A DNA stretch of 64,000 bases from Acinetobacter populi (lineage in GTDB: Bacteria > Pseudomonadota > Gammaproteobacteria > Pseudomonadales > Moraxellaceae): assembly GCF_002174125.1 (NCBI RefSeq), contig NZ_NEXX01000005.1:62001-126000 (forward strand). The letters run 5' to 3'. The position numbers were made by a program, and so were the translations under genes. Position 1 is the first letter of the stretch. Each line of letters starts with the position of its first letter. Positions 14,906 through 61,151 of this stretch are shown here, in pieces. Under the pieces are notes generated by a model. It saw nothing but the letters and a program-made list of their open reading frames with translations, searched no databases and was not told the DNA's origin.

Positions 14906-14927
14906 GTGTTGCTCTCCCTGAAATCCC

Positions 14928-15923: not shown

Positions 15924-15941
15924 GCTTATCTCCGTATCGAC

Positions 15942-16430: not shown

Positions 16431-16443
16431 ACCAGATGGTGTG

Positions 16444-16463
16444 ATTTCAGCAATTGATGAATA
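16444..16463. promoter_or_regulatory. MopR upstream activating site 2
   Basis: Second copy of the site, sharing its first 18 bases with site 1. The copies are offset by exactly 33 bp, about three helical turns, so bound MopR dimers would lie on the same DNA face. Paired, helically phased sites are usual for DmpR/XylR promoters. Confidence 0.8.
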
Positions 16464-16619
16464 TGTCGGTAATCTCTGATGCAACGTTAAAACATCATAT
16501 AGAGCCACATTTCAAGTATACCTTTTGAGTATATAATTATGCCTTTGATCTCCTGACTTTAGTGCCATAAATGCGCTACACTGCCCGTAGACAGTCATCA
16601 CCTGGGATGGGAATTGACC

Positions 16620-19859: not shown

Positions 19860-19960
19860 ACCGTGAACCGCCTTTTATCTCATACCGAATCATTTTTTAA
19901 AGGCAAAAAAACCCCACAACCATCTTCCAGAAAAGATAGGTTATTGATGTATAAAATGAT

Positions 19961-21628: not shown

Positions 21629-21640
21629 GACATTATCTCC

Positions 21641-42688: not shown

Positions 42689-43639
42689 ATGGACAAATTA
42701 CAATGCATGGAAGCATTTGTACGAGTTGCTGAAAGTGGTAGTTTTATTAAAGCTGCCGAACAACTAGGAGTAACTCGTTCAGTGATTACCGCCAGAATTC
42801 AACAATTAGAAAAATTCGTGGATTCCCCTCTTTTCTTTAGAAGTACACGCTCTGTTCGTCTTTCAGACATTGGTCTAACCTATTACAAAGAATGTGCCGA
42901 TCTGATCAACAAATTTGAATTTTTGGCTAATCAGATGTCAAATTCTAAATCAGCACTACATGGGAAATTAAGAATTCTAATGGCACCCGGTTTTGCAATT
43001 GACTATTTTGGAAAATATTTGACTGTATTTCTAGAAAGATTTCCTAATATCGATATGGATATAGAGGTATATGACAAAATTATAGACCCTATTTCATCAG
43101 GATTTGATGTGGTATTTCAAATGTTTCCACCACATAGCGAAAACCTAATCGATCGAAAAATTTTTTATGTCAATAGAGTAATTTGTGCAACACCACAGTT
43201 TATTGAGAAATTTGGTAAACCGAACCACCCTAATGAACTTCAAAATTTTTCTCTAGGATATTATTCAGGTTACCCTTCCCGAAATAAGCTGCAATTTTTA
43301 ATAAATGACAAATTCGAAGATATTCATTTAAATGCCAAAGTTCAATCATCTTCTATTCATTTACTGCGTGATTTTACTTTAAATCATGGAGGAATTGGTT
43401 GTCTACCTACATTAGTTGCACAAGAAAGTATATTTAATGGAAAACTCATAACTCTTCTTAAAAATTTCCCCTTATCTAATTATAGTTTACGAGCCGTATT
43501 TCCATCAAACTCTAAAAATATATCCAAGATTAGGGGTTTAATTGATTTTTTAGTTGAACAATTAGATATAATCCCTGATTGGGATATCAGACTAATTGAA
43601 AAAAATCATATTTCGGAACAAATCAAATACTTTCAATAA
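42689..43639 (+). CDS. LysR-type regulator beside the hydroquinone regulon
   Basis: A 316-residue LysR-family protein with a helix-turn-helix at about 18-38 (SFIKAAEQLGVTRSVITAR) and a divergent effector domain. Its gene converges on the second thiolase operon. As the nearest unassigned regulator to the hap operon, it is a candidate for the protein that reads the shared 23-bp operator at 46509 and 52687. This is inference, and the LysR at 41158 is the alternative. It is more AT-rich than the surrounding catabolic genes. Confidence 0.83.
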   Translation: MDKLQCMEAFVRVAESGSFIKAAEQLGVTRSVITARIQQLEKFVDSPLFFRSTRSVRLSDIGLTYYKECADLINKFEFLANQMSNSKSALHGKLRILMAPGFAIDYFGKYLTVFLERFPNIDMDIEVYDKIIDPISSGFDVVFQMFPPHSENLIDRKIFYVNRVICATPQFIEKFGKPNHPNELQNFSLGYYSGYPSRNKLQFLINDKFEDIHLNAKVQSSSIHLLRDFTLNHGGIGCLPTLVAQESIFNGKLITLLKNFPLSNYSLRAVFPSNSKNISKIRGLIDFLVEQLDIIPDWDIRLIEKNHISEQIKYFQ

Positions 43640-43807: not shown

Positions 43808-45016
43808 CTAATAAACACGCTCGATAATCAGTGCAATACCCTGTCCAACCCCTATACACATTGAACATAAGGCATAACGTCCGTCACATTGTTCGAGTTG
43901 ATTTAACGCTGTAGTGACCAGTCTTGCACCTGATGCACCGAGTGGATGCCCCAATGCTATCGCTCCACCGTTCGGATTTACCTTCTCACTGTTATCTGCC
44001 AAACCTAAATCCCGAGTAGTGGCTAAAGCCTGTGCAGCAAAAGCTTCATTCAACTCAATCACGTCCATCTGTGCTAAGGTCAAATCGACCTGTTTCAATA
44101 CTTTTTTAATTGCCAGTGCTGGTGCAAAGCCCATAATTCTTGGTTCGATGCCTACTGCTATTGATGCAATAATCTTGGCACGAGGTTTTAGACTATATAC
44201 TTGAATCGCTTCATTAGAGGCAATCAAAAGTGCTGCTGCACCATCGTTAATACCTGACGAATTACCTGCTGTTACTGTACCATTGACTTTGACCACAGGT
44301 TTAAGTTTACTTAAAGCTTCAAGTGTGGTTGAAGCACGTGGATGCTCATCGGTATCAATGATTACTGGATCTCCCTTAGATTGCGGAATTTCAACTGCCA
44401 CGATTTCCTTGCTAAAAAAGCCTTTGACTTGTGCACTTGCAGTACGTTGTTGACTGGTCAAGGCAAACTGATCCTGATCAGCGCGGTTCACATTAAACTG
44501 TTCTGCTACATTCTCGGCAGTCTGTGGCATTGTATCCACACCGTACAATGCTTTGAGTTTAGGATTGATAAAACGCCATCCCATGGTGGTGTCTTCGATT
44601 TTCTGGCTACGACTATAGGCACTTTCCGCTTTCCCCATCACAATAGGTGCGCGGCTCATACTTTCTACGCCGCCAGCAATTATTAGGTGAGCCTCACCTG
44701 ATTTAATGGCACGTGCAGCAATCGCAATTGCATCTAAAGATGAACCACATAAACGGTTAATGGTGGTAGCTGGTACTTGATATGGTAAACCTGCCAAAAG
44801 TGCAGACATGCGTGCGACATTGCGATTGTCTTCGCCCGCTTGATTGGCACAGCCATAGATCACATCATCAAGCTGTTGCCAGTTCACTGCCGGATTTCGT
44901 GCAATCAGGGCTTTAATCGGTATTGCACCTAAGTCATCGGCGCGTACTTGTGCAAGACTACCAGCATAACGGCCAAATGGTGTACGGATTGCATCAATAA
45001 TATAAGCATTTTGCAT
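43808..45016 (-). CDS. 3-oxoadipyl-CoA thiolase, second copy
   Basis: A 402-residue thiolase nearly identical to CatF in this window, with the same catalytic blocks (RLCGSS, GHPLGASG, CSMCIGVG). It cleaves 3-oxoadipyl-CoA to succinyl-CoA and acetyl-CoA. It follows the CoA-transferase pair with a 63-bp gap. There are no cat or pca lactone genes beside it. Its operator is shared with the hydroquinone operon, so it probably serves maleylacetate-derived 3-oxoadipate. Confidence 0.94.
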   Translation of the reverse strand: MQNAYIIDAIRTPFGRYAGSLAQVRADDLGAIPIKALIARNPAVNWQQLDDVIYGCANQAGEDNRNVARMSALLAGLPYQVPATTINRLCGSSLDAIAIAARAIKSGEAHLIIAGGVESMSRAPIVMGKAESAYSRSQKIEDTTMGWRFINPKLKALYGVDTMPQTAENVAEQFNVNRADQDQFALTSQQRTASAQVKGFFSKEIVAVEIPQSKGDPVIIDTDEHPRASTTLEALSKLKPVVKVNGTVTAGNSSGINDGAAALLIASNEAIQVYSLKPRAKIIASIAVGIEPRIMGFAPALAIKKVLKQVDLTLAQMDVIELNEAFAAQALATTRDLGLADNSEKVNPNGGAIALGHPLGASGARLVTTALNQLEQCDGRYALCSMCIGVGQGIALIIERVY

Positions 45017-45079
45017 AATTCATTTTATCCTTTTGTTTCATCTTTTAATGAGAAAAAATTCCTTTTAAAAAAAGCACGA

Positions 45080-45736
45080 TTATAGTGATTCCGTTGCATC
45101 CACTAACATAGCACCTGTTAGTGTCTGTAACTCTTCAAAGCTTAAACCTTCCAGCTTTTCAATCACTTTTAATCCAGTAGCAGTCACATCAATGATACAT
45201 AAGTCGGTATAAATACGGTCTACACAACATTTACCTGTTAGAGGATAAGTCAGTTCTTTAACGATTTTTGGTTCACCTTGTTTAGTGACATGATCGGTAG
45301 TAACAAATACTTTTTTGGCACCCACAGCTAAATCCATCGCCCCTCCGACTGCAGGAATGGCATCAGATGCACCAGTATGCCAATTAGCAAGATCACCATT
45401 TTCTGCAACTTGAAAAGCCCCAAGCACAGCAATATCAATATGTCCTCCTCGCATCATGGCAAATGAATCGCCATGATGGAAAAACACCCCACCTGGTAGC
45501 ATAGTCACAAATTCTTTGCCAGCATTGATCAATTCGGGATCTTCTTCACCTTTGTTTGGTGGTGGACCAAATGCTAATACACCATTTTCAGAATGAAGAA
45601 AAACGTCTTTGTCAGAGGGTAAATAACTGGCGATTTTGGTGGGTAAACCAATGCCTAGATTAACATAGGCTCCATCTGGAATATCTTGTGCCACACGCTG
45701 GGCAATTTGATCACGGCTGAGTTTTTGGTAGCTCAT
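45080..45736 (-). CDS. 3-oxoadipate CoA-transferase subunit B, second copy
   Basis: 218 residues starting MSYQKLSRDQIAQRV, very similar to CatJ, with the catalytic-Glu motif SENG. The ATG at 45736 has an AGGA site. An ATG 15 bp further upstream overlaps that site and is unlikely. It pairs with the A subunit 19 bp upstream. The two copies of this operon lie in the same orientation about 43 kb apart. Confidence 0.94.
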   Translation of the reverse strand: MSYQKLSRDQIAQRVAQDIPDGAYVNLGIGLPTKIASYLPSDKDVFLHSENGVLAFGPPPNKGEEDPELINAGKEFVTMLPGGVFFHHGDSFAMMRGGHIDIAVLGAFQVAENGDLANWHTGASDAIPAVGGAMDLAVGAKKVFVTTDHVTKQGEPKIVKELTYPLTGKCCVDRIYTDLCIIDVTATGLKVIEKLEGLSFEELQTLTGAMLVDATESL

Positions 45737-45755
45737 GGTTTTTTTCCTCATTGTC

Positions 45756-46427
45756 TTATTGTGCGGGTTTTATTTGTACAACGTGTTGGACAAAGATACC
45801 CGGGGTAATAATGTGTTCAGGATCTAGTTCTCCTAACTCAACCACTTCAGAAACCTGTGCAATGGTAATTGTGGCAGCCATTGCCATAATTGGACCGAAA
45901 TTGCGGGCAGATTTACGATAAACCAGATTGCCCCAACGATCACCCTTAGCAGCTTTGATCAAGGCAAAATCTGCTTTAATCGGATACTCCAGAATGTAAT
46001 CTTTACCATCGATATGACGGCCTTCTTTACCTCCGGCAAGCAAAGTACCAAAGCCAGTTGGGGTAAATACTGCACCTAATCCCATTCCGGCAGCCTGAAT
46101 ACGACACGCCAAATTACCTTGTGGGACTAGTTCTAGTTCAACTTTTCCCGCACGATACAATGCATCAAACACATAAGAATCTGACTGACGAGGAAAAGAG
46201 CAGATGATTTTTTTAACCGAACCTGCCTTAAGAAGTTTAGCTAGCCCATAGTTACCATTTCCGGCATTATTATTAACAATAATCAGTTCCTTAATGCCCA
46301 GCTCAATCAGACCATCTATCAGTTCAGCAGGTTGTCCAGCGCTACCAAAGCCACCAATCATGATAGTGGAACCATCTTTAATCTGAGACAATACCTCTCT
46401 AAAAGAAGCATTCGTTTTATCGATCAT
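45756..46427 (-). CDS. 3-oxoadipate CoA-transferase subunit A, second copy
   Basis: A 223-residue alpha subunit, close to CatI, with the glycine loop GGFGSAGQPAEL and the YRKSARNF block. First gene of the second CoA-transferase/thiolase operon, 82 bp after the 23-bp inverted-repeat operator and divergent from a SnoaL-like gene. It activates 3-oxoadipate using succinyl-CoA. Confidence 0.94.
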   Translation of the reverse strand: MIDKTNASFREVLSQIKDGSTIMIGGFGSAGQPAELIDGLIELGIKELIIVNNNAGNGNYGLAKLLKAGSVKKIICSFPRQSDSYVFDALYRAGKVELELVPQGNLACRIQAAGMGLGAVFTPTGFGTLLAGGKEGRHIDGKDYILEYPIKADFALIKAAKGDRWGNLVYRKSARNFGPIMAMAATITIAQVSEVVELGELDPEHIITPGIFVQHVVQIKPAQ

Positions 46428-47135: not shown

Positions 47136-47163
47136 AAAAAGTTAGCGTGTTCTATACGCTAAC
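47136..47163 (-). terminator. Intrinsic terminator of the hap operon
   Basis: On the minus strand an 8-base GC-containing stem GTTAGCGT-N7-ACGCTAAC followed directly by TTTTT. The stem overlaps the stop codon of the ferredoxin gene. Classic rho-independent structure closing hapCDEFGH. Confidence 0.88.
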
Positions 47164-47494
47164 CTTTGAAAAAGACAACGCCTTCATTTATCTCGATCTG
47201 TATCGCAGTCAATGAATGTCCTTTACAAGGACCATCTACACATTCTCCGGTACGAATATCAAACATGGCGGAATGATGTGCACACATAATCAACTGGTTT
47301 TCATAAGTACTAAATATTCCAGGTTTGTAATCCAATTGAACTGAAAAATGCGGACAGACATTTTCATAGGCATAAAAGCCGTCCTGGCCTTTAATCACCA
47401 CAATACTTTTTTTCTGATCTTCCGGATGTTCTACCCGAAGGCAGATATTTTGCTGGAAATCTTTCTGCTCACAGAGTTGGATCGGAGTCACCAT
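47159..47494 (-). CDS. hapH: Rieske-type [2Fe-2S] ferredoxin
   Basis: A 111-residue Rieske ferredoxin with both ligand pairs, CPH (about residue 42) and CAHH (about 70). It lacks a membrane anchor and is cytoplasmic. It is the last gene of the operon and begins 2 bp after hapG. In the P. fluorescens ACB hap cluster a ferredoxin gene (hapH) holds this place. Its likely use is to reduce (reactivate) the iron of the ring-cleaving dioxygenases, as small ferredoxins do elsewhere. Confidence 0.82.
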   Translation of the reverse strand: MVTPIQLCEQKDFQQNICLRVEHPEDQKKSIVVIKGQDGFYAYENVCPHFSVQLDYKPGIFSTYENQLIMCAHHSAMFDIRTGECVDGPCKGHSLTAIQIEINEGVVFFKG

Positions 47495-47496: not shown

Positions 47497-48348
47497 TCAG
47501 CTCTCCGAAAGAACAAAATCATATTCTATTAAATAATAGTCCCGATCAAGACCATATAAGGTTTTACTTTGATCGTCAGGCTGTTTTAGTTGATGGCGAA
47601 CAATCAAACGATCTTTTACACCAAATACCGCATCATTTTCCAAATATTTATCATTTTCTAGAAAGATATGCGTCACCAATGATTGATAACCTTCAGCAAC
47701 AATCTTGAAATGAATATGGGCAGGTCGCCAGAATGTGCGTTTGGCATAGCTCAAAAGCTTCCCAACAGTACCATCTGACGGAATCTGATAACTAACAGGT
47801 AAAATAGACTTTATCGCATAAGCACCATTCCCTTGGCTGACAAATACGCCACGTAAATTATCGATTTGTTGTTCGGGATCTTGACCGGAATACATCCCAT
47901 TATCTGCGGTTTGCCAGACATCAACATATGCATTGGCAATGGCTTCACCTCGTAAATTACTAATTTTTCCTTTAATTAATAAAGGAATAGATAGTTCTTC
48001 ATCTTCCATCACAATACTATCGGCATACTGCCTTACAGGCATATTTTCAACAAAGAATGGGCCAAAAACGGTTGACGGCGTTTGTATTTCATTCTTTTGA
48101 TGATTAATTTCATCGACTAACATGGAAATACCTAACACATCAGAGAGCAAAATATATTCCTGCCGCTGTTCATGACAAAGCTGACCTGTCTGGGTTAAAA
48201 ACTGGATAGCCTGCAACCATTCAGTTTCTGTCAGTTGCACTTCCTGAACATAGTCGTGCAATTTTTGCACCAGTGTTGTGATTAAAGTGCGGTGACGTGC
48301 GTCAGAGATACATTGAAAGCTCTGAACTGCTTGTATTGTCACACTCAT
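47497..48348 (-). CDS. hapG: Hydroxyquinol 1,2-dioxygenase-like intradiol enzyme
   Basis: A 283-residue intradiol dioxygenase. The Fe(III) ligands are visible as Tyr in GMYSGQ, Tyr in PVSYQIP and His-x-His in RPAHIHFK. It is closer to hydroxyquinol than to catechol dioxygenases (short N-terminal helical domain, GPFFVENMP). Cleaves hydroxyquinol to maleylacetate. The start at 48348 has AAGGAATTT. An ATG 42 bp upstream is less likely. In hap/pnp clusters this enzyme sits beside the hydroquinone pathway and may handle hydroxyquinol formed in a side branch. Confidence 0.88.
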   Translation of the reverse strand: MSVTIQAVQSFQCISDARHRTLITTLVQKLHDYVQEVQLTETEWLQAIQFLTQTGQLCHEQRQEYILLSDVLGISMLVDEINHQKNEIQTPSTVFGPFFVENMPVRQYADSIVMEDEELSIPLLIKGKISNLRGEAIANAYVDVWQTADNGMYSGQDPEQQIDNLRGVFVSQGNGAYAIKSILPVSYQIPSDGTVGKLLSYAKRTFWRPAHIHFKIVAEGYQSLVTHIFLENDKYLENDAVFGVKDRLIVRHQLKQPDDQSKTLYGLDRDYYLIEYDFVLSES

Positions 48349-48430
48349 AATAAATTCCTTTTTCTGGTATGACTTAGCTATTCGTAGCAAATAAGGACTA
48401 CGATAGGGTATGTCTTTTCTTCATCACGGG

Positions 48431-49510
48431 CTATTTATCCTCAACGGGCGGCAATCCTTGATAAGCTTTGGATAAAAGATCTAATAACTCTTCATAGTCA
48501 TAATCACGAGGGTTGTAATAGGGATTGTCGCAAACAATGCGGGCAACTTCTGAAGGTCCTTGTTCTGGCAAACCAATATCTTTAAGTGCTAAAGGGATAT
48601 TTAAAGACTGATTTAAATGGTAGATAGCCAAACCAACGTGTTCACGATTACTTACCCCCAAAGCGTCTCCTAGACGATCCATAGCTTCAATATCTGCATT
48701 ACGGTTGTAATGTATTGAATATGCCAATGTAATCGCATGTGCCTGAGCATGTGGCAAGTCAAATGTACCGCCTAAGGTATGACAAATTTTATGGTGAATC
48801 GCCATACCAACTGAACCTAAGCAAATTCCGGCCAGCCAAGCCCCATATGTCGCCTGTTTACGGGCAGTTAAGTCATCAGGATTTTTAACAATCTGTGGTA
48901 ATGCCTGACTTAAAGATTTAACTGCCTCTATTGCCAGCATGCTAATAATAGGATTCTTGTCTTTTGCATATAAAGCCTCTATTGCATGCGCCATAGCATT
49001 CATACCTGAACTTGCAGAAATAGTCGCAGGTAGCGTTAAACTCAATTCTGGATCATAAATGACAACTTTTGGTAAAACCTTTAAATCTTTGCCTGTTGTT
49101 TTTATTTTATTCTCTGTCAGTCCATATACGGTTGTCATCTCACTGCCCGCATATGTTGTCGGAATTGCAACAATAGGGAGATCCGTTTTAAGCGCAATCG
49201 CTTTGGCCAAACCAATAGTCGAACCACCGCCCAATGCCAAACAACAATCTGCTTTTTTTTCAATCGCTACCTCAATTGCTTTATTTGCCACCTCTACAGG
49301 TACATGCATTACTGCTTTAGGATAAACGTCACATACCAAAGAACCGAGTTGCTGTGCCAGTTTCACCCCGTCCTCCTCTTGTTCTGGGGTAGTAATTACC
49401 AGAACAGAAGTAAAACCTTTTTCCTGCAAAATGGTTTTAATCCTGTTTGACTCACCAACACCAAAATACACCTCAATCGGCAAAGCAAAATAATGAAAAT
49501 CTTTTATCAT
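48431..49510 (-). CDS. hapF: Maleylacetate reductase
   Basis: A 359-residue NAD(P)H-dependent enzyme that reduces maleylacetate to 3-oxoadipate. It is an iron-alcohol-dehydrogenase-fold protein with the GGGSTIGLAKA nucleotide loop, the AIPTTYAGSEMT segment and HKICHTLGG with HAQAHA, all hallmarks of maleylacetate reductases. It overlaps the aldehyde dehydrogenase gene by 4 bp (ATGA). Its product feeds the second CoA-transferase and thiolase set. Confidence 0.93.
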   Translation of the reverse strand: MIKDFHYFALPIEVYFGVGESNRIKTILQEKGFTSVLVITTPEQEEDGVKLAQQLGSLVCDVYPKAVMHVPVEVANKAIEVAIEKKADCCLALGGGSTIGLAKAIALKTDLPIVAIPTTYAGSEMTTVYGLTENKIKTTGKDLKVLPKVVIYDPELSLTLPATISASSGMNAMAHAIEALYAKDKNPIISMLAIEAVKSLSQALPQIVKNPDDLTARKQATYGAWLAGICLGSVGMAIHHKICHTLGGTFDLPHAQAHAITLAYSIHYNRNADIEAMDRLGDALGVSNREHVGLAIYHLNQSLNIPLALKDIGLPEQGPSEVARIVCDNPYYNPRDYDYEELLDLLSKAYQGLPPVEDK

Positions 49511-51039
49511 GAGTCATCTCGTTTAAAATGCGGTGGAATTTGAGCATCAACATTTACCCATACCGATTTCACCTCGGTATAATCATGAATCGCTTCAAAG
49601 CCCATCTCACGGCCATACCCCGATTTACCCACACCACCAAAAGGACTTCCTGGACTGACACGCTTATAGCTATTAATCCAGCACATTCCAGCTTTAATTT
49701 TTTTGGCAAAACTATGCGCTCTTTGCAAATTATTGGTCCATAAACCACTTCCCAGACCATATTCTGTATTATTCGCAATTTGTAATGCTTCCTTGTCATC
49801 TTTAAAACGTAAAACCGTCACAAAAGGTCCGAAGACTTCTTCTTGAGCAACTCGATCATCAGATTTGGCTTCAACAATAGTAGGTAAAACGTAATAACCA
49901 TGTTTCAGGCTATCGTCATTTGGTACAATACCGCCTGTTAGCACTTTACCGCCTTGTTCTAGCGCAATTTTGGCATAAGATAAAACTTTATCCCGATGGG
50001 CCTGTGATGTTAATGGGCCCATTTCAGTATCAGGATCCAATGGATCACCTAAACGTATACTTTTTGCTAAATCAATAAACTTTTCTAAAAACTGATCTGC
50101 AATACTTTCATGTAAAACTAGACGAGATCCTGCAATACAGGCCTGTCCTTGATTATGAAAAATTGCCCATGCAGCACCATTTACCGCAGCCTCGATGTTG
50201 GCATCTTCAAAAACGATATTAGCCCCCTTCCCGCCAAGCTCCAGTTGTACTCGCTTTAAATTACCCGAAGATGCATTAACAATATTTCGTCCAGTCTGTG
50301 TGGAGCCAGTAAATGAAATCTTACCAATATCAGGGTGATCAGCCATGCGCTGGCCTGCCGTATGTCCATATCCCGGAACAATATTTACTACACCATCAGG
50401 AAAGCCAGCCTGTTTAATCAACTCAGCTATTTTTAAGGTTGATAGTGGTGTAATTTCTGAAGGCTTCATCACCACAACATTCCCTGCTGCCAATGCGGGA
50501 CCAAGTTTCCAGCTGGTAAACATTAACGGAAAGTTCCACGGTACAATTTGACCGACAATACCAATGGGTTCACGCAGAACATAGTTCAAAAAACCTTGTT
50601 CCACCGGGACCACACTACCTTCAATCTTATCTGCAATACCGCCAAAATAACGAAAACAGGCTGCTGTACGTGGCACATCCAGACGACGTGAATCGCGTAT
50701 TGGATGTCCTGTATCCAATGATTCCAGATATGCTAATTCTTCTAGATTTTCTTCAATTAAATCAGCTAACTTAAGCAATAATCTCCCTCGTTCTGCTGCT
50801 GAAGTTTCTAGCCATTTGGGTAATGCATTTTGTGCTGCAATGACTGCCACATCTACATCTTCTGCTTCTGCTGCGGCAATTTTGGTAATAATTTGACCAT
50901 TGGCAGGATTCAAAACATCTATCGTCCCACCATTAATTGCTGGAACAAATTTTCCATTGATAAATAACTGTGTGTTAATATTCATGCCTGCTATATTTTC
51001 AGCTGCAAGATTTTCTTTAAAATTTATGTGAGTATTCAT
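49507..51039 (-). CDS. hapE: 4-Hydroxymuconic semialdehyde dehydrogenase
   Basis: A 510-residue NAD-dependent aldehyde dehydrogenase. The Glu lies in ELGGKGAN, the catalytic Cys in NQGQACIAGSR, and the ending is SPFGGVGKSGYGREMG. By family alone it could be a betaine-aldehyde-like enzyme. The place between the HQ dioxygenase subunits and maleylacetate reductase points to oxidation of 4-hydroxymuconic semialdehyde to maleylacetate, as HapE/PnpE do. The ATG at 51039 has AAGG 7 nt upstream. An internal Met at residue 19 is the alternative. Confidence 0.87.
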   Translation of the reverse strand: MNTHINFKENLAAENIAGMNINTQLFINGKFVPAINGGTIDVLNPANGQIITKIAAAEAEDVDVAVIAAQNALPKWLETSAAERGRLLLKLADLIEENLEELAYLESLDTGHPIRDSRRLDVPRTAACFRYFGGIADKIEGSVVPVEQGFLNYVLREPIGIVGQIVPWNFPLMFTSWKLGPALAAGNVVVMKPSEITPLSTLKIAELIKQAGFPDGVVNIVPGYGHTAGQRMADHPDIGKISFTGSTQTGRNIVNASSGNLKRVQLELGGKGANIVFEDANIEAAVNGAAWAIFHNQGQACIAGSRLVLHESIADQFLEKFIDLAKSIRLGDPLDPDTEMGPLTSQAHRDKVLSYAKIALEQGGKVLTGGIVPNDDSLKHGYYVLPTIVEAKSDDRVAQEEVFGPFVTVLRFKDDKEALQIANNTEYGLGSGLWTNNLQRAHSFAKKIKAGMCWINSYKRVSPGSPFGGVGKSGYGREMGFEAIHDYTEVKSVWVNVDAQIPPHFKRDDS

Positions 51040-51093: not shown

Positions 51094-52098
51094 TTAAAAA
51101 TTTACTGGATAAGGTGGTAACTCACCTGAAGCATATTTCTCTGGTAAATCTGGCGTGGCATTTTCCCAAACCAAAAGTAAAGAACGCTTAGTTGAGTAGC
51201 CCTGATGACGAATATTTGCAGGCATTGCACATATATCACCTGGTTTCATAATAATTCTAGCTAATGGGCTACCATCATTCTTATCTGAAATATCCCAAGT
51301 AATTTCATCCGAGAACTGTAAAAACCATTCAACCCGGTCATTACCATGAATAATAGGTAAGATATATTCTTCAGTGGTCGGGCAAAATAAACTTTCTTTA
51401 CAAACTGACGTCACCGAGGGATTCCAAGTTACATCGGATCGAGACATATATTTAAAAACATTAAATGCACTCAATTCTCCCTCAAATCCACGCTCACAAT
51501 GCACAAGGGGTTCATCTTGAGGAACATCATGGAAATGGCGATTAACGGGCAAATCATCTCTTAAAGGGGAATCTCCATTCAAACCTGGCATACGCTTTGT
51601 AGAAATACGATAGCGATCAATAGCATCAACATTACTACCGTTTTTACGACCAAACGCACTACCAGTTTCTTCAGGTGCTGCAAAAGGATCAAAACCTTCA
51701 TTCACCCAATCATGTAAAATGGCTTTGAACGTTGCCATAATTTTAGGTGTTTCAAAATTCTCAACATAATCGACACCCGCTGCACTCAGTACACCATTAA
51801 ACGTTCCGGCGTACATGTCCACGCTACCATAATGATTTTGCGTACCAATTACATGATCAAAGTTAACCCAGCCATAGAAAAAACCCCATGCAACATCACG
51901 CATAATTGCACGTAAGAATGCATCTACGGACATTAAATGTGAGTGTTCTTGCCCTTTTGCAGTCCATGTGATTTTCGCAAAGTATTCATCGCGAGAAAAA
52001 AGGAAATTACCTAATTTAAAACCTTTGTAACCAGTTAAAGCATTTTCATCAAAAACTTCAACTAGTTCACTTGCAAAATTTTTATTCAAAGAGTTCAT
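51094..52098 (-). CDS. hapD: Hydroquinone 1,2-dioxygenase large subunit
   Basis: A 334-residue cupin-like protein matching the large (about 38 kDa) subunit of type II, Fe(II)-dependent hydroquinone dioxygenase (HapD/PnpD). It contains HxH-type and Glu metal-ligand candidates (VHCERGFEG, VNRHFHD) and a C-terminal cupin half (IIMKPGDICAMPANIRHQG). It cleaves hydroquinone to 4-hydroxymuconic semialdehyde together with HapC, whose gene ends 13 bp upstream. Strong AGGAG site. I recognise it by length, partner gene and operon order more than by a single motif. Confidence 0.83.
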   Translation of the reverse strand: MNSLNKNFASELVEVFDENALTGYKGFKLGNFLFSRDEYFAKITWTAKGQEHSHLMSVDAFLRAIMRDVAWGFFYGWVNFDHVIGTQNHYGSVDMYAGTFNGVLSAAGVDYVENFETPKIMATFKAILHDWVNEGFDPFAAPEETGSAFGRKNGSNVDAIDRYRISTKRMPGLNGDSPLRDDLPVNRHFHDVPQDEPLVHCERGFEGELSAFNVFKYMSRSDVTWNPSVTSVCKESLFCPTTEEYILPIIHGNDRVEWFLQFSDEITWDISDKNDGSPLARIIMKPGDICAMPANIRHQGYSTKRSLLLVWENATPDLPEKYASGELPPYPVNF

Positions 52099-52111: not shown

Positions 52112-52603
52112 TTATTTCAAGCAAATTTCGTCCCACTTTTCTAAAGAAAGTGGACCATGGATCGTTTGTAAAAGAAGTGTTGTGGGTTTCTGGCTATCAA
52201 ATCTATATGCGGTTCCGGCTGGTAAAATAGCTTGATGTCCCTCTTTTAAAACCACATATCCCATAGGTTGTCCATTTGGCTCAGATCCAGCCAATTGAGT
52301 TCCTTCTATTTGTATATCGACACTTTCATTTAATTTTAAAAAGTCAACTCGTACTTCACCATCCATTGAAATAACAAATTCGTCATGTGAGCAAGTAAAC
52401 CAACTTGATGTCCCTTCTGCTCTAATCGTCTCAATTACGAATTTTTGATTAATCCCTACAATCGTTTTATCATAGGGCTTTGCGTTTTTGGCAACTTCAA
52501 AAATATTAGAAAATACATAGTTTGAAGCTTTACCTTGTATAAGCTGGATATTTCCTTTTTCGTAGTTATCCAAACTTCCAAATTTGGTTGTATAAGTATT
52601 CAT
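52112..52603 (-). CDS. hapC: Hydroquinone 1,2-dioxygenase small subunit
   Basis: A 163-residue cupin-fold protein, the expected size of the 18-kDa HapC/PnpC subunit. Features are CSHDEFVISMDGEVRVDF (first cupin motif) and LKEGHQAILPAGTAYRF (second). The start at 52603 is supported by GCAGGA. An in-frame ATG at 52627 would put that site inside the gene. First gene of hapCDEFGH. A 23-bp operator lies 84 bp upstream. Confidence 0.83.
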   Translation of the reverse strand: MNTYTTKFGSLDNYEKGNIQLIQGKASNYVFSNIFEVAKNAKPYDKTIVGINQKFVIETIRAEGTSSWFTCSHDEFVISMDGEVRVDFLKLNESVDIQIEGTQLAGSEPNGQPMGYVVLKEGHQAILPAGTAYRFDSQKPTTLLLQTIHGPLSLEKWDEICLK

Positions 52604-52686
52604 TACTTTTTTCCTGCGAGTCTCCATGACATGTTTAGAAATTAAGTCAAACCTAAAAACTTAGCAATGGTTATTTTAACGACAAC

Positions 52687-52709
52687 AATGTTCGTTATTT
52701 GCGAACAAT
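52687..52709. promoter_or_regulatory. Shared 23-bp operator, copy at the hap operon
   Basis: Inverted repeat AATGTTC-N9-GAACAAT (inner TTCG...CGAA). It is placed 84 bp before the hapC ATG, almost the same distance as at the second CoA-transferase operon (82 bp). The T-N11-A core indicates a LysR-type regulator. Confidence 0.78.
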
Positions 52710-53053: not shown

Positions 53054-54409
53054 ATGAAACATACTCTATTGACATTAGGTGTAATTGCAGCACCATTTTT
53101 ACTTTATGGCGTCCCTTCGTATGCGGATGAAAATCTGGCCCAAGGTTGGCTTTTTCATTCTGATGCTACCAAAGGTGAAAATATCACGATTACAGGTTGG
53201 GCACAGGCAAGCGTTGCTGACAGTAATCATGGCAAACAATTGGCACCAGCCACGGTATTTAGACATTCAGATGGCTTTACTCTCGATCAAATGGGAATTA
53301 TGGTCGAAAAAAAAATCAAGAGTAATTTAATTAGCCGTGTGGGCCCAATTCCAGTTGAAATGCCGAAAGATTTCGATTGGGGCTTTAATATTACAGCGAT
53401 GTATGGTGCGGATAACTTTTTTTTTCGAACGTATGGTTTAGATGATGATTGGTCGATTAATAAATTAGGTAATTTTGACCGTACGGATTATTACACAACC
53501 TTAACACAAGCCTACTTAGACTTTTATCTGCCTTATTTCAATGGAAGTAATTTGACAATTGGTTTATTTCATTCACCGCTTGGTCATGAAATAGGTTTTG
53601 CACTACCTAGTCCTGCACCAGCTAACTTTTATACACATACCTATAGTTTTGTACATGGACCAGCAAAACATACAGGTGTGCTATGGAGTAGCCATCTCCT
53701 AAATAATCCCACTACGTCAAAACTTTCCTATGAACTGGGCTTGGTTCGTGGATATAACAATTGGCAGGACATCCATAACAATTGGAGTTTAATTGCCAAC
53801 TTACGTTGGCGCAGTGCAGATTTTAAAACATGGGTAGATTTTGAGAATATTTATGGAAATAGTACAGATGATTCTGTTACCAGTTGTCTATGTGGATCAC
53901 CAATCCCAACCAGTTCTGCACTTGCCAGTGATAGTTCCTTAAAACGTTTTCAATCTTATTTAACTATTTCACACGATATTGATGAGAAAAATAGTTTAGC
54001 CATGGAAGCGTCTTATGGCTACCAAGAGAAGTCGTTATTTGCAGATATACTCAATCAAATACCAAGTACTTCTCTCTCAAATGGAGGTGTAGATGCCTCA
54101 TGGTCAGGCGTAAATTTAAGTTATAAGCATAAATTCAACACCCAACTTAGTACCTCTTTACGAGGAGAATATTTTGACACCGATGGCGTAAACGTAATGT
54201 TGCCTTATGCCGGCAAATACAAAGCCTTAACCAGCAATATTGCTTGGTCACCTGTTCCATATTTACGTTTACGTCCAGAAATTCGTTATGACTGGTATAC
54301 AGGAAAAGCCAAACCATTTGGTGCGGATAAAGATACCCCACCTCCTTTAACTCAAGGCCAATATGACAATCAATTTAGTTATTCAGTTGATTTGACCTTC
54401 TTTTTTTAA
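53054..54409 (+). CDS. Outer-membrane beta-barrel porin, OmpL-like (BBP2)
   Basis: 451 residues with a signal peptide (to about residue 24, cleaved after SYA) and alternating beta strands ending in SVDLTFFF, a classic C-terminal aromatic for barrel insertion. The sequence style (ITGWAQASV near the start, TQAYLDFYLP, FHSPLGHEIG) matches the putative beta-barrel porin-2 family. First gene of a four-gene operon with a transporter and two enzymes, so it probably lets the substrate through the outer membrane. Confidence 0.8.
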   Translation: MKHTLLTLGVIAAPFLLYGVPSYADENLAQGWLFHSDATKGENITITGWAQASVADSNHGKQLAPATVFRHSDGFTLDQMGIMVEKKIKSNLISRVGPIPVEMPKDFDWGFNITAMYGADNFFFRTYGLDDDWSINKLGNFDRTDYYTTLTQAYLDFYLPYFNGSNLTIGLFHSPLGHEIGFALPSPAPANFYTHTYSFVHGPAKHTGVLWSSHLLNNPTTSKLSYELGLVRGYNNWQDIHNNWSLIANLRWRSADFKTWVDFENIYGNSTDDSVTSCLCGSPIPTSSALASDSSLKRFQSYLTISHDIDEKNSLAMEASYGYQEKSLFADILNQIPSTSLSNGGVDASWSGVNLSYKHKFNTQLSTSLRGEYFDTDGVNVMLPYAGKYKALTSNIAWSPVPYLRLRPEIRYDWYTGKAKPFGADKDTPPPLTQGQYDNQFSYSVDLTFFF

Positions 54410-54435
54410 TCATGGATGAATCGGAAGAAATTAAT

Positions 54436-55725
54436 ATGAAACCACAGCAATGGGATACAAAATATGAATGGAAAGCGGTACTCCTCCTTTCATTAGGATT
54501 TGGTTTAGTCGGATTGGATCGATGGATTATTGCACCATTACTGCCATCAATTATGAGAGATCTTGACTTAAATTATACCGATATAGGTTTGATTTTTGGT
54601 GCATTAGGAATAACGTGGGGAATTTTTGCAATCCTAGCGGGAAATCTATCTGACCGTATTGGCCATCGAAAAATACTCATTCCATCTCTCATTATTTTTT
54701 CAATTGCATCTGGATTTTCCGGTACTGCGACTGGACTGATCAGCTTAATTTTTATAAGAGCCATTATGGGAGTATCTGAAGGTGCATTTTGTCCTACCAG
54801 TTTCGCCGCTACTGCAATAGCAGCAAAACCTTCACGTCGTGGGAGTCTGCAAGGCCTTCAGCAAAGTGGATTTGCCTTGTTGGGATTAGGCTTAGGTCCT
54901 ATTATTGCGACACAATTACTTCTGGTTGTTCCATCATGGCGCGAAGTGTTTTGGGTGGTTGCCATTCCAGGATTAATTTTAGCAGCCTTTATGTACTTCA
55001 TTATTAAAGAACCACAAGATACTCAAGGTGGGCAAGTTCTCTCAAATCATAATGAGATCAGTCATCAGAAAGAAAAGATACATTGGGGACAATTGCTTAG
55101 AACCAGAAACATATTGCTTAGCATGCTGGGTTTATTTTGTACCATGTCATGTGTTTTTGTAATTAGTGCCATGGTGCCACTTTATTTAGAAAACTATTTG
55201 AAATTAAATTCTCAAAGTATGGGAATCGTTGTATCAGCAATTGGTTTTGGTGGTTTTCTAGGTCAATTTTTACTCCCCACAATTTCTGATTGGATTGGTC
55301 GAAAAAAAGCTTCTTTTCTTGGCTTTCTAGGATCAACGATCTTTATTTATTTTTTCGCAAATTCAACTGCTGAAGTATCCACATTATTCATCTATTTATT
55401 CATTCTTTCATTCTTTAGCTTAGGATTAATAGCCTTACTGAGTGGTCCTATTGCCGCAGAATCCGCTCCGATTGGTCTAGTCGCCTCTTCTATTGGACTC
55501 GTTGTTGGAGCTGGAGAAATTTTTGGTGGAGGCGTAGCACCTTTCATATCAGGTTTAATTGCCGAAAATTACGGTATTCAAAATATTTTTTATTTAAGTC
55601 TGATTGGGACAATGACAGGGATGGTTATTAGTTTATTTATTAAAGAAACGGCGCCTCGACTAATACAAAAACATTTTTTAAACAATTCGGTACATAAAGT
55701 TAAAACTTCAGGAAGCAGCAAATGA
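54436..55725 (+). CDS. MFS transporter for an aromatic-type substrate
   Basis: 429 residues and 12 predicted helices. It has an MFS signature loop GNLSDRIGHRKI after helix 2 and a DRW motif in helix 1 (VGLDRWIIAPLLP), like anion:cation or aromatic acid symporters. I start it at 54436, where GGAAG precedes the ATG. The earlier ATG at 54412 has no ribosome site. It overlaps the hydrolase gene by 4 bp. The substrate is probably the compound processed by the next two enzymes. Confidence 0.85.
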   Translation: MKPQQWDTKYEWKAVLLLSLGFGLVGLDRWIIAPLLPSIMRDLDLNYTDIGLIFGALGITWGIFAILAGNLSDRIGHRKILIPSLIIFSIASGFSGTATGLISLIFIRAIMGVSEGAFCPTSFAATAIAAKPSRRGSLQGLQQSGFALLGLGLGPIIATQLLLVVPSWREVFWVVAIPGLILAAFMYFIIKEPQDTQGGQVLSNHNEISHQKEKIHWGQLLRTRNILLSMLGLFCTMSCVFVISAMVPLYLENYLKLNSQSMGIVVSAIGFGGFLGQFLLPTISDWIGRKKASFLGFLGSTIFIYFFANSTAEVSTLFIYLFILSFFSLGLIALLSGPIAAESAPIGLVASSIGLVVGAGEIFGGGVAPFISGLIAENYGIQNIFYLSLIGTMTGMVISLFIKETAPRLIQKHFLNNSVHKVKTSGSSK

Positions 55726-56711
55726 ACAGTCCAGTAACTATTCTCAAGCAAGGTCATTTTTGGACAGGTATTCAACGCCATAATACACCGCTTGGCACAA
55801 TTGCATATGGTGCAATGTCTGTTCAATATCAAATACCTCAAGAATTAAAATTCCCGTATCCAATTGTCTTTATTCACGGAGGAGGCGGACAAGGCTGTGA
55901 ATTTCTTTCTACGCCTGATGGACGCCCAGGATGGGCTCAATACTTTTTAAGACAAGGTTTTTCAACTTACATCATTGATCGGGCAGGTCATGGCAGATCA
56001 CCATTTTCAGAAGCTCTGGGTGAACCTGTTTCTCTATTAACGTATGAATTGGTTCAAGATTTATTTACTCAACCCAAATCACATATTGGAGGTGAATGGG
56101 CAAAGCTTGCAAAAAATTGGCCTGATAATAAAGAAGCTATTGATCAATTTATGGCTGGGGCCGGTCCAGTCATTGGAGCCTTGGCCGAAACTGAAAAATT
56201 TGCTCGTTTAGGTGGTGCAGAATTGCTTGATCAAATTGGTCCTTGTATCTTAGTCACCCATTCCATGGGAGGACCATGTGGATGGGTAATTGCGGATGAA
56301 CGCCCTGACTTGGTTAAAGCGATCATTAGTATCGAACCTTTAGGCCCACCATTTTCAGAACCCTTTCCTGGCTTAGGGGCACTTGAGTGGGGAATTACGG
56401 CAAGTCCTCTTCAATTTACCACATCAGCACCATCAGCTGACCAGATTTTAGACTCATTTCAAACAATTAATGCACTAGCAGAAATACCTATCGCAATTTT
56501 AACTGGGGAAGCATCTTTTATGAATGCCGCTGACCCACTTACGGTTGAATTCTTAAAACAACATGGTGCCTTAGTCGAACATGTCAAATTAGCTGAACAT
56601 GGCATGTACGGAAATGGCCACTTTATGATCGGAGAAACAAACAGTGATGAAATAGCTCAATTTGTAATTGATTTAATCAAAAGCAAATTACCGAATGAAT
56701 CGGAAAACTGA
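55722..56711 (+). CDS. Alpha/beta-fold hydrolase of the porin-MFS operon
   Basis: A 329-residue hydrolase. The oxyanion region is FIHGGGGQG, the strand-turn is DRAGHGRSP, the nucleophile elbow THSMGGP has the catalytic Ser, and a His lies in GNGHFMIGE near the C-terminus. No signal peptide, so it is cytoplasmic. It is co-translated with the transporter (4-bp overlap) and followed by the flavin monooxygenase. It probably frees a hydroxylated aromatic from an ester or amide, but the substrate cannot be read from sequence. Confidence 0.82.
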   Translation: MNSPVTILKQGHFWTGIQRHNTPLGTIAYGAMSVQYQIPQELKFPYPIVFIHGGGGQGCEFLSTPDGRPGWAQYFLRQGFSTYIIDRAGHGRSPFSEALGEPVSLLTYELVQDLFTQPKSHIGGEWAKLAKNWPDNKEAIDQFMAGAGPVIGALAETEKFARLGGAELLDQIGPCILVTHSMGGPCGWVIADERPDLVKAIISIEPLGPPFSEPFPGLGALEWGITASPLQFTTSAPSADQILDSFQTINALAEIPIAILTGEASFMNAADPLTVEFLKQHGALVEHVKLAEHGMYGNGHFMIGETNSDEIAQFVIDLIKSKLPNESEN

Positions 56712-56739
56712 TTTAGTTAATTTTAAAAAGGAATTTATT

Positions 56740-58053
56740 ATGAATTATGATACAGACGTACTCGTTGTTGGTTGTGGCCCTGTTGGGATCTTATGTGCGC
56801 TTGCTCTTGCACAAGAAAATCTGAAAGTCACGATTATTGAAATGTCACCAGAAATCATACCTGCACCTCGAGCCCCAGTTTATTTTCCTTCTACTATTTA
56901 TGCACTCGATAAATTAGGATTATTAACAGACTTAGAAAATATTGCATCAGTCGGCAAACAAATCTCTCAACACTTCCCGATTCTGAATAAAAAGGTAACA
57001 ATAAACCTGAATATTTTAGAGGGGTTATCTTATCCTTATACCCTACATATTGGTCAAGATAAACTGGCTGAATTAGGTATCAAACATGCAAAAAAACTAG
57101 GCGTTGAAATTCAATTTGGTCAAAAATTTATTAATTTCGAGGATGTTGAAGATGGTGTAATTTCAACCGTCGAGAATGCAGAAGGTCGCTTTGATATCAG
57201 GTCTAAATGGCTTATCGGAACAGATGGTGCAAGTTCATCCGTGCGGGAAAAAATGAATATTCATTTTGATGGAATGACTTGGCCAATTCGATTTGTCGCA
57301 GCAAATATTCACGCAAAACTTTACGATCATGGTTATAGTGCAACAAATTTTATAGCACGCCCAGAACATAATGGTGTCGTCGTTATTATTGATGAAAAAA
57401 CTGATTTGTGGCGTATAGCCTATTCAGAAAATGCAGATTTAGATCCAGAAAAAGTTGCAGAGCGCTTTGAAGAGAATTGTGCGCGTCCATTTATCCCCGA
57501 AGGTGCACAATATAAAATTTCTACCTTAAGACAATATAGATTACACCAACGAGCAGCTTCTACGTTTAGACAAGGTCATGTACTTTTAGCCGGTGATGCG
57601 GCGCATATTACCAGTCCAATTGGCGGCTTGGGCTTATCAGGGGGCATTTGGGATGCGATGATATTAGCAGATTTATTGGGTGCTATCTCTAGAAATGAGG
57701 AAAGTATTGATATATTAGATAAATATTCCGAAGAACGGCAACGTGTTTTTTGGGAAGTGGTTACCCCAGGAGCAAAGGAAAATTTGCGTGTAATTGGGGA
57801 AAAAAATATAGATCAACATCAACTGGATTGTGAGGCTGCTCAAGTTGCCGGAAATAATCCTGAAATAGGGGTTCGCGTATTACTTTTCTCTCATAAACTC
57901 ATTGGGGATACTTTACGTAAAAATTCACGCTGGAAAGATGCTAGTAAAATCAAGGGTGTTGATATGAATAAAATTGATGCTCAAATGGGCGATATTAAAA
58001 ATCGATTTGAGGAGGCAACATCTCAAATAAAATTAAAAGAAACGACCTCATAA
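56740..58053 (+). CDS. FAD-dependent aromatic monooxygenase of the porin-MFS operon
   Basis: A 437-residue class A flavoprotein hydroxylase (PF01494 type). It has GCGPVGI at the N-terminus for FAD, the DG-type motif TDGASSSVRE (about 160), and GDAAHITSPIGGLGLSGG (about 285) for FAD ribityl and pyrophosphate. The ATG at 56740 has AAGGAATTT, the same signal as hapG. An in-frame ATG at 56695 overlaps the hydrolase. Such enzymes use NAD(P)H without a separate reductase. Given the divergent hydroquinone operon, an oxidative step giving hydroquinone is the best guess. Confidence 0.85.
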   Translation: MNYDTDVLVVGCGPVGILCALALAQENLKVTIIEMSPEIIPAPRAPVYFPSTIYALDKLGLLTDLENIASVGKQISQHFPILNKKVTINLNILEGLSYPYTLHIGQDKLAELGIKHAKKLGVEIQFGQKFINFEDVEDGVISTVENAEGRFDIRSKWLIGTDGASSSVREKMNIHFDGMTWPIRFVAANIHAKLYDHGYSATNFIARPEHNGVVVIIDEKTDLWRIAYSENADLDPEKVAERFEENCARPFIPEGAQYKISTLRQYRLHQRAASTFRQGHVLLAGDAAHITSPIGGLGLSGGIWDAMILADLLGAISRNEESIDILDKYSEERQRVFWEVVTPGAKENLRVIGEKNIDQHQLDCEAAQVAGNNPEIGVRVLLFSHKLIGDTLRKNSRWKDASKIKGVDMNKIDAQMGDIKNRFEEATSQIKLKETTS

Positions 58054-58125: not shown

Positions 58126-58587
58126 TTAGGTGATGCTATCGAGTTTTTCATTCAATTTTTTCATGGCTTTTTCTGATGTAACAACCGTAAAATCGGTAAG
58201 TTTTTCTTTTAATGCAACATGATTTCCTTGTTTTAAAATATCATCGGCCTCGATATAGGTTGGACAATTGGCACCTTAAATGATTAATTTTGCCTTGATG
58301 TTTTGCGCTCTTTCAACAGTGACCCTCCCGTGCCGCAGGAATAAAAATATCCATGTCCGTGGGTCCAGAAATCATCATTACTGATGACCTGTACGCATTC
58401 AAGTCCTGCTACACCCGCAACTTGCTGTAAATAGTCCAGTAGTTTTGGAATATCAATACCTCAGGATAATCGATTTGTACCAGTATGGTCCTGAATACTC
58501 GTGATGATGGCACCGGCTTCCTGAAACAGTCGGGCAGCTTCACCGTCAACATTGCCCAAACCCTATACTGCTACTTTGGCGCCTAGA
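58126..58587 (-). pseudogene. Glu/Leu-type dehydrogenase relic with an unrelated tail
   Basis: Degraded coding sequence on the minus strand. GLGNVDGEAARLFQEAGA and IQDHTGT (NAD domain), GIDIPKLLDYLQQVAG, then frameshifted DIFIPAA and NIKAKLII-stop-GANCPT followed by EADDIL are recognisable as a Glu/Leu/Phe/Val dehydrogenase. At least three stops or shifts are present and both ends are missing. After DDIL the frame continues for about 35 codons (ending KLNEKLDSIT) with sequence that does not belong to that family. It occupies the gap between the monooxygenase and the salR-like gene. Confidence 0.72.
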
Positions 58588-58764: not shown

Positions 58765-59658
58765 TTAAAGATACTGAAATATTTGCCAAACAGATTGAGC
58801 TAACCATTTTCTTGCGACAATATCATCACTGCGGTTAAACCAGTTTAGACTAACCTTAAAGGAATCCATCGTAAATGGAAGCTCAAACATTTGGACATTA
58901 TTGCTATGCTTCAAATAATGCTGAGCCGCGCGTGATGGTAGTGTCACCAACATATCGGAACACTGTAAAACACCTTGCAATACACTAAAATGTGGCACCT
59001 CCAAACGGATATGACGTTTTAAGTTCATGGTTTTGAGTGTCTGCTCAACCTGTATATGACCAGTCGAAGATTTAATCGCAATATGATCTTCCTGTAGATA
59101 TTGCTCTAGGCTTAGTTCTTTTTTTAATCTCGGATGATTGGCTCTGGAAATACAAACATATCGCTCCTCAAATACAGTTCGCGTTTCTATTTTTGACATC
59201 ATGGTTTTACTGCTATTAAAAACCGCCAAATCCAGAAAGCCATCAATTAACCATTGTTCGACTTTAGCAGATTCAATCTCTTCAATTTCAATTTTGATAT
59301 TTGGAGCTGCCTGCTGTAAAAAGGCAATTAAACTTGGTAAAAGACAAATTTCACCTACATCAGATAAACCAATTCGAAATGTTTTATGAGAAGTCTCTGG
59401 ATGAAATGCCTGAACTTCAGCAATTGCCGACTCAATATTAAAAATAGCTTGATGAAATATAGGATAAAGCTCATGAGCCATTTTGGTTGGCTCAACACCA
59501 CTACGTCTTCGAATAAACAGTACATCATTGAGCTGATCACGTAAACGATTCAAATTATAAGTGACCGATGGCTGGCTTAGATTTAACTTATCAGCTGCTT
59601 TACCAATATTACGAGACTCATAAATACAAACAAAAACCTTAATCAAACCTAAATCCAT
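58765..59658 (-). CDS. salR: NahR/SalR-like LysR regulator
   Basis: A 297-residue LysR protein of the NahR branch, with a helix-turn-helix at about 17-37 (NIGKAADKLNLSQPSVTYN). The effector domain has SDVGEICLLP, where NahR has a similar DIGEIYFMP, and RLEVPHFSVLQGVLQ, nearly the NahR version. NahR and SalR respond to salicylate. It lies downstream of the transporter gene in the salicylate module, in the same direction. Good AAGGAT ribosome site. Confidence 0.82.
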   Translation of the reverse strand: MDLGLIKVFVCIYESRNIGKAADKLNLSQPSVTYNLNRLRDQLNDVLFIRRRSGVEPTKMAHELYPIFHQAIFNIESAIAEVQAFHPETSHKTFRIGLSDVGEICLLPSLIAFLQQAAPNIKIEIEEIESAKVEQWLIDGFLDLAVFNSSKTMMSKIETRTVFEERYVCISRANHPRLKKELSLEQYLQEDHIAIKSSTGHIQVEQTLKTMNLKRHIRLEVPHFSVLQGVLQCSDMLVTLPSRAAQHYLKHSNNVQMFELPFTMDSFKVSLNWFNRSDDIVARKWLAQSVWQIFQYL

Positions 59659-59749
59659 GGCACTGATCCTTTATATTCTCTAAACAAAGACTTCATTTTC
59701 TTTATTTAAAGTCTAGTCTGTTTTATATGAATAACAAAGGGTTATTCTA

Positions 59750-61105: not shown

Positions 61106-61151
61106 TGCTTTCCTTAGCAAATTGTGAATAAAACAAAAATCCTGTTAACTG

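Follow-up and report, generated by a model that had tools for sequence, protein, structure and literature searches.

A recurring class A monooxygenase–hydrolase gene pair beside the hydroquinone pathway of Acinetobacter populi, with para-hydroxyaryl ketones as candidate substrates

The subject of this analysis is a four-gene operon at positions 53054-58053 of a window of 64,000 nucleotides of Acinetobacter populi DNA, the window being the whole stretch analysed (RefSeq assembly GCF_002174125.1, contig NZ_NEXX01000005.1, positions 62,001 to 126,000 of the forward strand). Its tightly spaced plus-strand open reading frames (ORFs) are divergent from a hydroquinone 1,2-dioxygenase (hap) operon, and constitute a real, coherent and partly understood operon, a new variant of known hydroquinone-funnelling pathways. 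Its interest lies in a recurring monooxygenase–hydrolase pair rather than in the four-gene set, and we propose by analogy, with the balance standing about even, that this pair makes hydroquinone from para-hydroxyaryl ketones, the monooxygenase attacking the ring at the ipso position and the hydrolase aiding release of the acyl group, to feed HapCD. The initial annotation of an uptake-plus-attack set making hydroquinone stays plausible for this operon, with its unity as one set, the type of monooxygenase, the order of steps and an amide-linked substrate now corrected. No description of this gene set was found in a literature search at the level of titles and abstract openings. The four genes are:

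53054..54409, plus strand: BBP2-type outer-membrane porin, 451 amino acids (PF07642, 149 bits)
54412..55725, plus strand: importer-like transporter of the major facilitator superfamily (MFS), 437 amino acids (MFS_1, 199 bits)
55722..56711, plus strand: alpha/beta hydrolase of the esterase-713/SulE family, 329 amino acids (Abhydrolase_1; triad S181, E205, H300)
56740..58053, plus strand: class A flavin adenine dinucleotide (FAD) monooxygenase, in a third subclade of the PnpA/HspB clade (FAD_binding_3, PF01494)

Each of the four Pfam assignments exceeds its curated cut-off, and the tight packing and divergence from hap described initially are confirmed by ORFs, Pfam matches and junction distances, with a 2-base gap between porin and MFS genes and a 4-base ATGA overlap between MFS and hydrolase genes. 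The monooxygenase start at 56740 lies 28 bases after the hydrolase gene with AAGGA upstream; an alternative listed start at 56695 would overlap the hydrolase gene by 17 bases, without an AAGGA-type site.

Families and recurrence of the monooxygenase–hydrolase pair

Sequence searching identifies PnpA (258 bits) and HspB (211 bits) as the best solved relatives of the monooxygenase, the next scoring 103 bits, and comparison of predicted structure leads to the same enzymes: the AlphaFold model (predicted local distance difference test score, pLDDT, 89) is closest to HspB (Z 48.0, root-mean-square deviation (rmsd) 1.6, 383 residues) and PnpA (Z 47.8, rmsd 2.0, 389 residues), followed by p-hydroxybenzoate hydroxylase (Z 38.7). 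Tree building places the window monooxygenase in a 22-row PnpA/HspB clade (support 100/100) and, within it, in a 4-row subclade (100/100) with enzymes of Sphingobium EP60837, an Altererythrobacter metagenome-assembled genome and the gammaproteobacterial genome G212, a C-terminal SRWKD stretch being common to three of the four. This subclade is separate from that of HspB and from that of PnpA, which groups with the KU-64 and Massilia enzymes; the subclade placements come from a second tree, which omits L002, L053 and L037 for long branches or odd composition, the first tree retaining all three. The initial view that the monooxygenase of p-nitrophenol clusters is of another kind is therefore wrong at the family level, PnpA and HspB being the nearest solved relatives in a common clade, with the window enzyme in the subclade of neither. 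In the published portions consulted, the characterised clade members compared, PnpA and HspB with its orthologues, are described as acting on the ring position para to the hydroxyl group, whose substituent they displace (PMC6122326, PMC4108407, PMC4879640), and the window monooxygenase is by analogy predicted to be an ipso (para-carbon) hydroxylase.

The hydrolase belongs by sequence to the esterase-713/SulE family, its phmmer relatives being 4q34, 1qlw and the SulE chains, has an intact triad and is predicted to be an esterase-type enzyme. Members of this family take ranks 1-13 against its structural model (Z 22.7-23.4, the next at 18.4), a model of moderate confidence (pLDDT 65.8, with residues 91-152 and 210-248 below 50). 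Ser181, Glu205 and His300 align with Ser, Glu and His in 20 of 20 family rows, and the nucleophile lies in a T-H-S-M-G context rather than G-X-S-X-G, as is described, in the part of the source available, for the Ser-Glu-His triad of SulE (PMC10356948). The likeness to SulE and esterase 713 thus extends to sequence, fold (Z ~23), triad and absence of G-X-S-X-G; those enzymes are described as acting on sulfonylurea and lotrafiban-intermediate esters (same partial source), whereas the window hydrolase sits with a ring hydroxylase.

The pairing of these two families recurs across phyla. A monooxygenase search of sampled genome contigs returned at least 467 relatives, and among the best 80 loci, which were kept, the hydrolase lies near the monooxygenase in five of the eight that belong to the PnpA/HspB clade (L029, L030, L032, L035 and L037) and in none of the 72 outside it (Fisher p 2.3e-6, an optimistic value because the loci are related). 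Ten of the 72 were placed by the first tree, the other 62 being weaker matches without tree placement, and 21 of the 80 loci span less than 20 kb, such that a hydrolase past the contig end would be missed. Plasmids of Massilia and of two Rhodococcus also carry the pair, as do three plasmid records with HspB-type genes, in which the hydrolase gene directly follows that of the monooxygenase: Sphingobium (ndp annotated), Shinella HZN7 (ndpC annotated; the hydrolase is absent from the plasmid gene table, its reading frame being open in the DNA) and Aminobacter (judged to be nicotine-type from neighbouring genes, without such annotation). The accessible part of one report names no role for the hydrolase beside the ndp monooxygenase (PMC5343071), and excerpts of another list, after the induced 6-hydroxy-3-succinoylpyridine (HSP) hydroxylase of Agrobacterium S33, a 'hypothetical protein' that is also induced (log2 6.4; PMC5500553), for which an esterase-713-type hydrolase is our guess from gene order.

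A search with HapD alone, and hence blind to the pair, was made in two partly overlapping samples of other genomes, one of the class (368) and one of the phylum (397); each gave four HapD hits, none of them shared. The pair is present in one of these eight loci, that of G212, a gammaproteobacterium of another family, where a monooxygenase (42%) and a hydrolase (41%) stand beside hapCD; neither was found in the stretches of 11-20 kb at the other seven. G212 is also the sole match of a hydrolase search (E <= 1e-30) of 184 other genomes of the class. The combination of pair and hapCD is thus rare, yet where it is present a chance association is unlikely.

Uptake genes and enzyme pair as two modules

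Comparison with congeners separates the operon into two modules, the MFS gene and, in part, the porin gene belonging to the hydroquinone locus of the genus, and the hydrolase and monooxygenase genes being a substrate-specific addition, since congeners keep the uptake genes without the pair. Among 175 genomes of the genus searched with PF18191 (HapD) as the marker of hap loci, six are positive, that of the window included, and all five other loci feature hapCD, dehydrogenase, reductase, intradiol enzyme and Rieske ferredoxin genes. An MFS gene divergent from hapC, its product 75-81% identical to that of the window, is present in all five, and a porin gene adjoins hap in two (G081 and G019, 68% and 71% identical); the hydrolase and this kind of monooxygenase are found in none of the five hap stretches, the only FAD_binding_3 relative in that of G081 being 24% identical. 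On these counts, the porin, transporter, hydrolase and monooxygenase genes taken initially as one set are not a single unit, the pair being seen elsewhere and the uptake genes in congeners that lack it.

Within the genus, the hydrolase (E <= 1e-40) is found in two of the 175 genomes, the window's own and G149 (L120/L028), where a 42% identical hydrolase without this monooxygenase lies in another aromatic cluster, neighboured by intradiol, maleylacetate-reductase-like, CoA-transferase and thiolase genes. At the DNA level, the pair has no second copy among the 175 genomes searched; the matches were limited to MFS genes at hap loci, the relic in G014 and short stretches resembling the relics downstream of the monooxygenase gene.

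The congener loci differ further in two accessory genes. A PF00884 sulfatase gene after the ferredoxin gene closes the hap operon in four of the five (G125, G120, G081 and G083; L115-L117, L119), which suggests aryl sulfates as a further source of hydroquinone in these congeners; an arylsulfatase route was rejected for the window, in which two congener sulfatases used as queries gave no tblastn match. An IclR gene lies between the divergent operons in two of the five, and was rejected as the hap regulator here, its top match in the genome of the window being only 31%.

Substrate class, mechanism and competing explanations

Enzymes of the p-cresol methylhydroxylase (PCMH), short-chain dehydrogenase/reductase (SDR), cytochrome P450 and pyrroloquinoline quinone (PQQ)-dependent types typically take a benzylic carbon to the alcohol and then to the ketone, and such genes recur around the pair. 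On the Massilia plasmid, the genes upstream of monooxygenase, hydrolase and hapCD specify an SDR, a cytochrome c and a PCMH-type flavoprotein that matches 1dii at 592 bits. The pair in G212 is neighboured by genes for a PQQ dehydrogenase, a cytochrome c and a relative of the Massilia flavoprotein (32%, 237 bits), the contig carrying three such copies in all. Four actinobacterial pair loci have in common an SDR (64-69% identical to that of L030) and a P450 (62-83%), and a PQQ dehydrogenase gene adjoins in the Altererythrobacter genome; L035 and L037 have no informative neighbours. Because these neighbours oxidise side chains, and the substrate in the nicotine clusters is a hydroxypyridyl ketone, the contexts suggest by analogy a para-hydroxyaryl ketone as the common denominator.

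The HspB-type enzymes of nicotine pathways (HspB, Hsh, NdpD and VppD; HSP 3-monooxygenases) share clade and fold with the window monooxygenase, have a homologous hydrolase downstream on the three plasmids described above, and act on a para-hydroxy-type aryl ketone; they differ in belonging to another subclade and in a pyridine product that feeds Hpo/Nfo/Ami/Iso rather than HapCD. Labelling reported in part of one source indicates that HspB converts the hydroxypyridyl ketone to 2,5-dihydroxypyridine (2,5-DHP) and succinate, with the ring oxygen derived from O2 and that of the acid from water (PMC6122326). By analogy, this fits either of two routes, ipso-hydroxylation with hydrolytic loss of the acyl group, or migration of the acyl group to form an ester that is then hydrolysed, and each would include a reaction of the kind that serine hydrolases carry out.

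By extension to the window, the compound entering via porin and MFS transporter would be a para-hydroxyaryl one whose side chain is oxidised, likeliest a ketone (4-hydroxyacetophenone-like or a keto acid), and the FAD monooxygenase, with NAD(P)H and O2, would hydroxylate the acyl-bearing ring carbon by ipso attack. The acyl group would be lost to water as a carboxylic acid, a loss that the esterase-713-type hydrolase would perform or speed, either through C–C (retro-Claisen) cleavage of the ipso-hydroxylated dienone or through hydrolysis of an aryl ester after acyl migration to oxygen. Hydroquinone cleavage by HapCD would then lead through 3-oxoadipate to central metabolism.

A close functional precedent is the hap cluster of Pseudomonas fluorescens ACB for 4-hydroxyacetophenone, which shares HapCD, the semialdehyde dehydrogenase and hydroquinone as the ring-cleavage substrate. 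The ACB route reportedly employs a monooxygenase and then an esterase. According to partial accounts it passes through 4-hydroxyphenyl acetate made by a Baeyer–Villiger enzyme, in place of which the window has a class A monooxygenase with an esterase-713-type hydrolase; no Baeyer–Villiger-type Pfam match was found among the 20 proteins scanned from 39540 to 62429. The window pair would by analogy be a non-Baeyer–Villiger counterpart of this monooxygenase/esterase route.

Several observations weigh against this proposal. The window monooxygenase sits on a long branch (1.07), and the pair is present in only one of 13 other hap loci surveyed, the five congeners counted. Hydrolase and monooxygenase also occur apart: six clade loci (L024, L031, L033, L034, L137 and L138) lack the hydrolase, and relatives of the hydrolase without a clade monooxygenase are found in all seven other plasmid places (~6 kb each side) and in G149, the five annotated plasmid places having an EthD-type gene in three, an LLM oxidoreductase in one and, in the fifth (Sphingobium EP60837), a clade monooxygenase ~38 kb off on the same plasmid. 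The solved relatives of the hydrolase are ordinary esterases, and its monooxygenase-linked members are not convincingly grouped in the hydrolase tree, 76 of 500 shuffles giving a value as low. Since the window's genome lacks a PCMH homologue (E <= 1e-20), the ketone would need to be imported. Excerpts on the HSP hydroxylase report that the purified enzyme yields 2,5-DHP without added hydrolase, and that the fate of the side chain is debated, succinic acid by mass versus succinic semialdehyde in an earlier report (PMC4108407); the hydrolase may therefore only assist, or act elsewhere, for example in opening an incoming ester. More ambiguously, NdpD is described, in the portion available, as active in Sphingomonas aquatilis when expressed apart from the other genes of its cluster, and as inactive in E. 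coli crude extract and in P. putida KT2440 (PMC5343071).

A less likely alternative begins with an imported ester derived from a para-substituted phenol, such as an alkyl 4-hydroxybenzoate: the hydrolase would cleave it, and the monooxygenase would then ipso-hydroxylate the phenol so released, for example decarboxylatively, to hydroquinone. SulE and esterase 713 are genuine carboxyl-ester hydrolases and the triad is intact, and the G149 hydrolase lies in an aromatic cluster without this monooxygenase; against this, the neighbouring genes at several pair loci, and HSP as the substrate in nicotine clusters, speak for side-chain oxidation rather than for esters, and the groups displaced by characterised members of the clade are nitro or acyl. 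The order of hydrolysis before oxidation, as initially drawn, is accordingly less favoured by the contexts than oxidation first or together with hydrolysis, retaining some plausibility because the solved relatives of the hydrolase are esterases. An amide-linked substrate, also initially entertained, finds no specific support among these carboxyl-ester hydrolases, and a paracetamol/amide route, considered from part of a review (PMC6063337), was rejected on the same ground.

Rather improbable is a nitrophenol- or halophenol-type para-hydroxylase, displacing nitrite or halide to give benzoquinone, with a quinone reductase encoded elsewhere and the hydrolase unrelated to the step. PnpA (p-nitrophenol 4-monooxygenase) is the best sequence match and ties for the best fold match, its system shares with the window the kind of hydroquinone ring-cleavage genes, to the enzymes of which the downstream genes match, and the Massilia pair locus has a PnpA-like enzyme (61%) alongside the hydrolase. 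The window monooxygenase nevertheless falls outside the PnpA subclade and is accompanied by a hydrolase, and no quinone reductase was found among the four operon and six hap proteins scanned, the search not extending to the rest of the genome. The KU-64 plasmid, in contrast, encodes 88% PnpA homologues and a WrbA quinone reductase, with no such hydrolase in the stretch read, and the PnpB quinone reductase goes with nitro displacement according to excerpts of PMC4879640; acyl loss by ipso attack yields hydroquinone directly, with no quinone reductase needed. Very improbable, finally, is conversion of hydroquinone to hydroxyquinol by the monooxygenase, with the hydrolase serving another substrate: the hap operon does encode a hydroxyquinol 1,2-dioxygenase-type enzyme, but all five congener hap loci have it without this monooxygenase, and known clade members are para-displacing.

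The hydroquinone locus, its surroundings and implications

The divergent operon is by sequence a genuine hydroquinone pathway, because HapC, HapD, the aldehyde dehydrogenase and the intradiol enzyme match solved pathway enzymes. Its genes, with associated features, are:

52112..52627, minus strand: HapC, hydroquinone 1,2-dioxygenase small subunit (4zxa_A, 221 bits)
51094..52098, minus strand: HapD, hydroquinone 1,2-dioxygenase large subunit (PF18191; 4zxa_W, 586 bits)
49507..51039, minus strand: gamma-hydroxymuconic semialdehyde dehydrogenase (4go3, 870 bits)
48431..49510, minus strand: iron-containing alcohol dehydrogenase (Fe-ADH), maleylacetate reductase by position and relatives
47497..48390, minus strand: hydroxyquinol 1,2-dioxygenase-type intradiol enzyme (3n9t, named PnpC there, 293 bits; 1tmx, 188 bits)
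47159..47494, minus strand: Rieske-type ferredoxin (PF00355), in the hap operon of five of five congeners
43808..46427, minus strand: CoA-transferase subunits and thiolase (PF01144 twice, Thiolase), predicted 3-oxoadipate end steps
42689..43639, plus strand: LysR regulator (PF03466/PF00126), kept at the hap locus of two congeners
52690..52706, no strand: GTTCG-N7-CGAAC inverted repeat between the divergent operons, candidate shared operator
58132..58429, minus strand: relics of a LysR gene end and a presumed glutamate-dehydrogenase-like gene, downstream of the monooxygenase gene (86% nucleotide identity to G014)

The putative reductase is 46% and 52% identical to products of plasmid genes annotated as maleylacetate reductase, and 1tmx, matched by the intradiol enzyme, is a hydroxyquinol 1,2-dioxygenase. 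The small Rieske-type ferredoxin may serve to reactivate the iron dioxygenase. The two congener matches to the LysR regulator are 78% identical over 316 amino acids in G019 and 66% over 133 in G081.

Inverted repeats similar to that between the operons lie in the same region of three of the five congeners, G083, G081 (shorter spacer) and G019 (shorter arms), and none was found in the portions of G120 and G125 that were read. With 0.49 chance matches expected in the window at up to one mismatch, the motif is weak alone, and is a faint hint, from sequence, of shared control of the divergent operons. Downstream of the monooxygenase gene, the relics have their counterpart in G014, where a relic of the monooxygenase 3' end only (86% DNA identity) adjoins an intact LysR gene; the two sites have decayed differently, the window keeping a LysR relic and G014 a monooxygenase relic.

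The wider window is an aromatic-catabolism island, as judged from the genes at 3614-18320, which comprise Phenol_Hydrox-family genes, a XylR_N-type activator, an intradiol dioxygenase and a muconate-lactonizing-type gene. At 58765-62429, on the opposite strand, are LysR and MFS genes and a second FAD_binding_3 monooxygenase gene, which we take to resemble a salicylate-type cluster. Inside the catabolic region, at 19077-22324, lie BLH phosphatase/pyridine-nucleotide-oxidoreductase, metallo-beta-lactamase-type and TauE genes, presumably resembling sulfide detoxification.

A broader proposal is advanced tentatively: that a class A flavin hydroxylase with a dedicated esterase-713-type hydrolase, acting on an ipso-hydroxylated or ester intermediate, forms a widespread second route of acyl removal from para-hydroxyaryl ketones in hydroquinone, hydroxyquinol and nicotine pathways across phyla, which would explain the hydrolase gene beside HSP monooxygenases. 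The comparison of loci in itself separates the core uptake genes of the operon from its substrate-specific attack genes. If the proposed chemistry is true, the pair would provide a route to hydroquinone from lignin-type 4-alkyl- and 4-acylphenols that is independent of Baeyer–Villiger enzymes, suggest a role for the hydrolase gene of the nicotine clusters, and offer a two-gene signature for finding such pathways.

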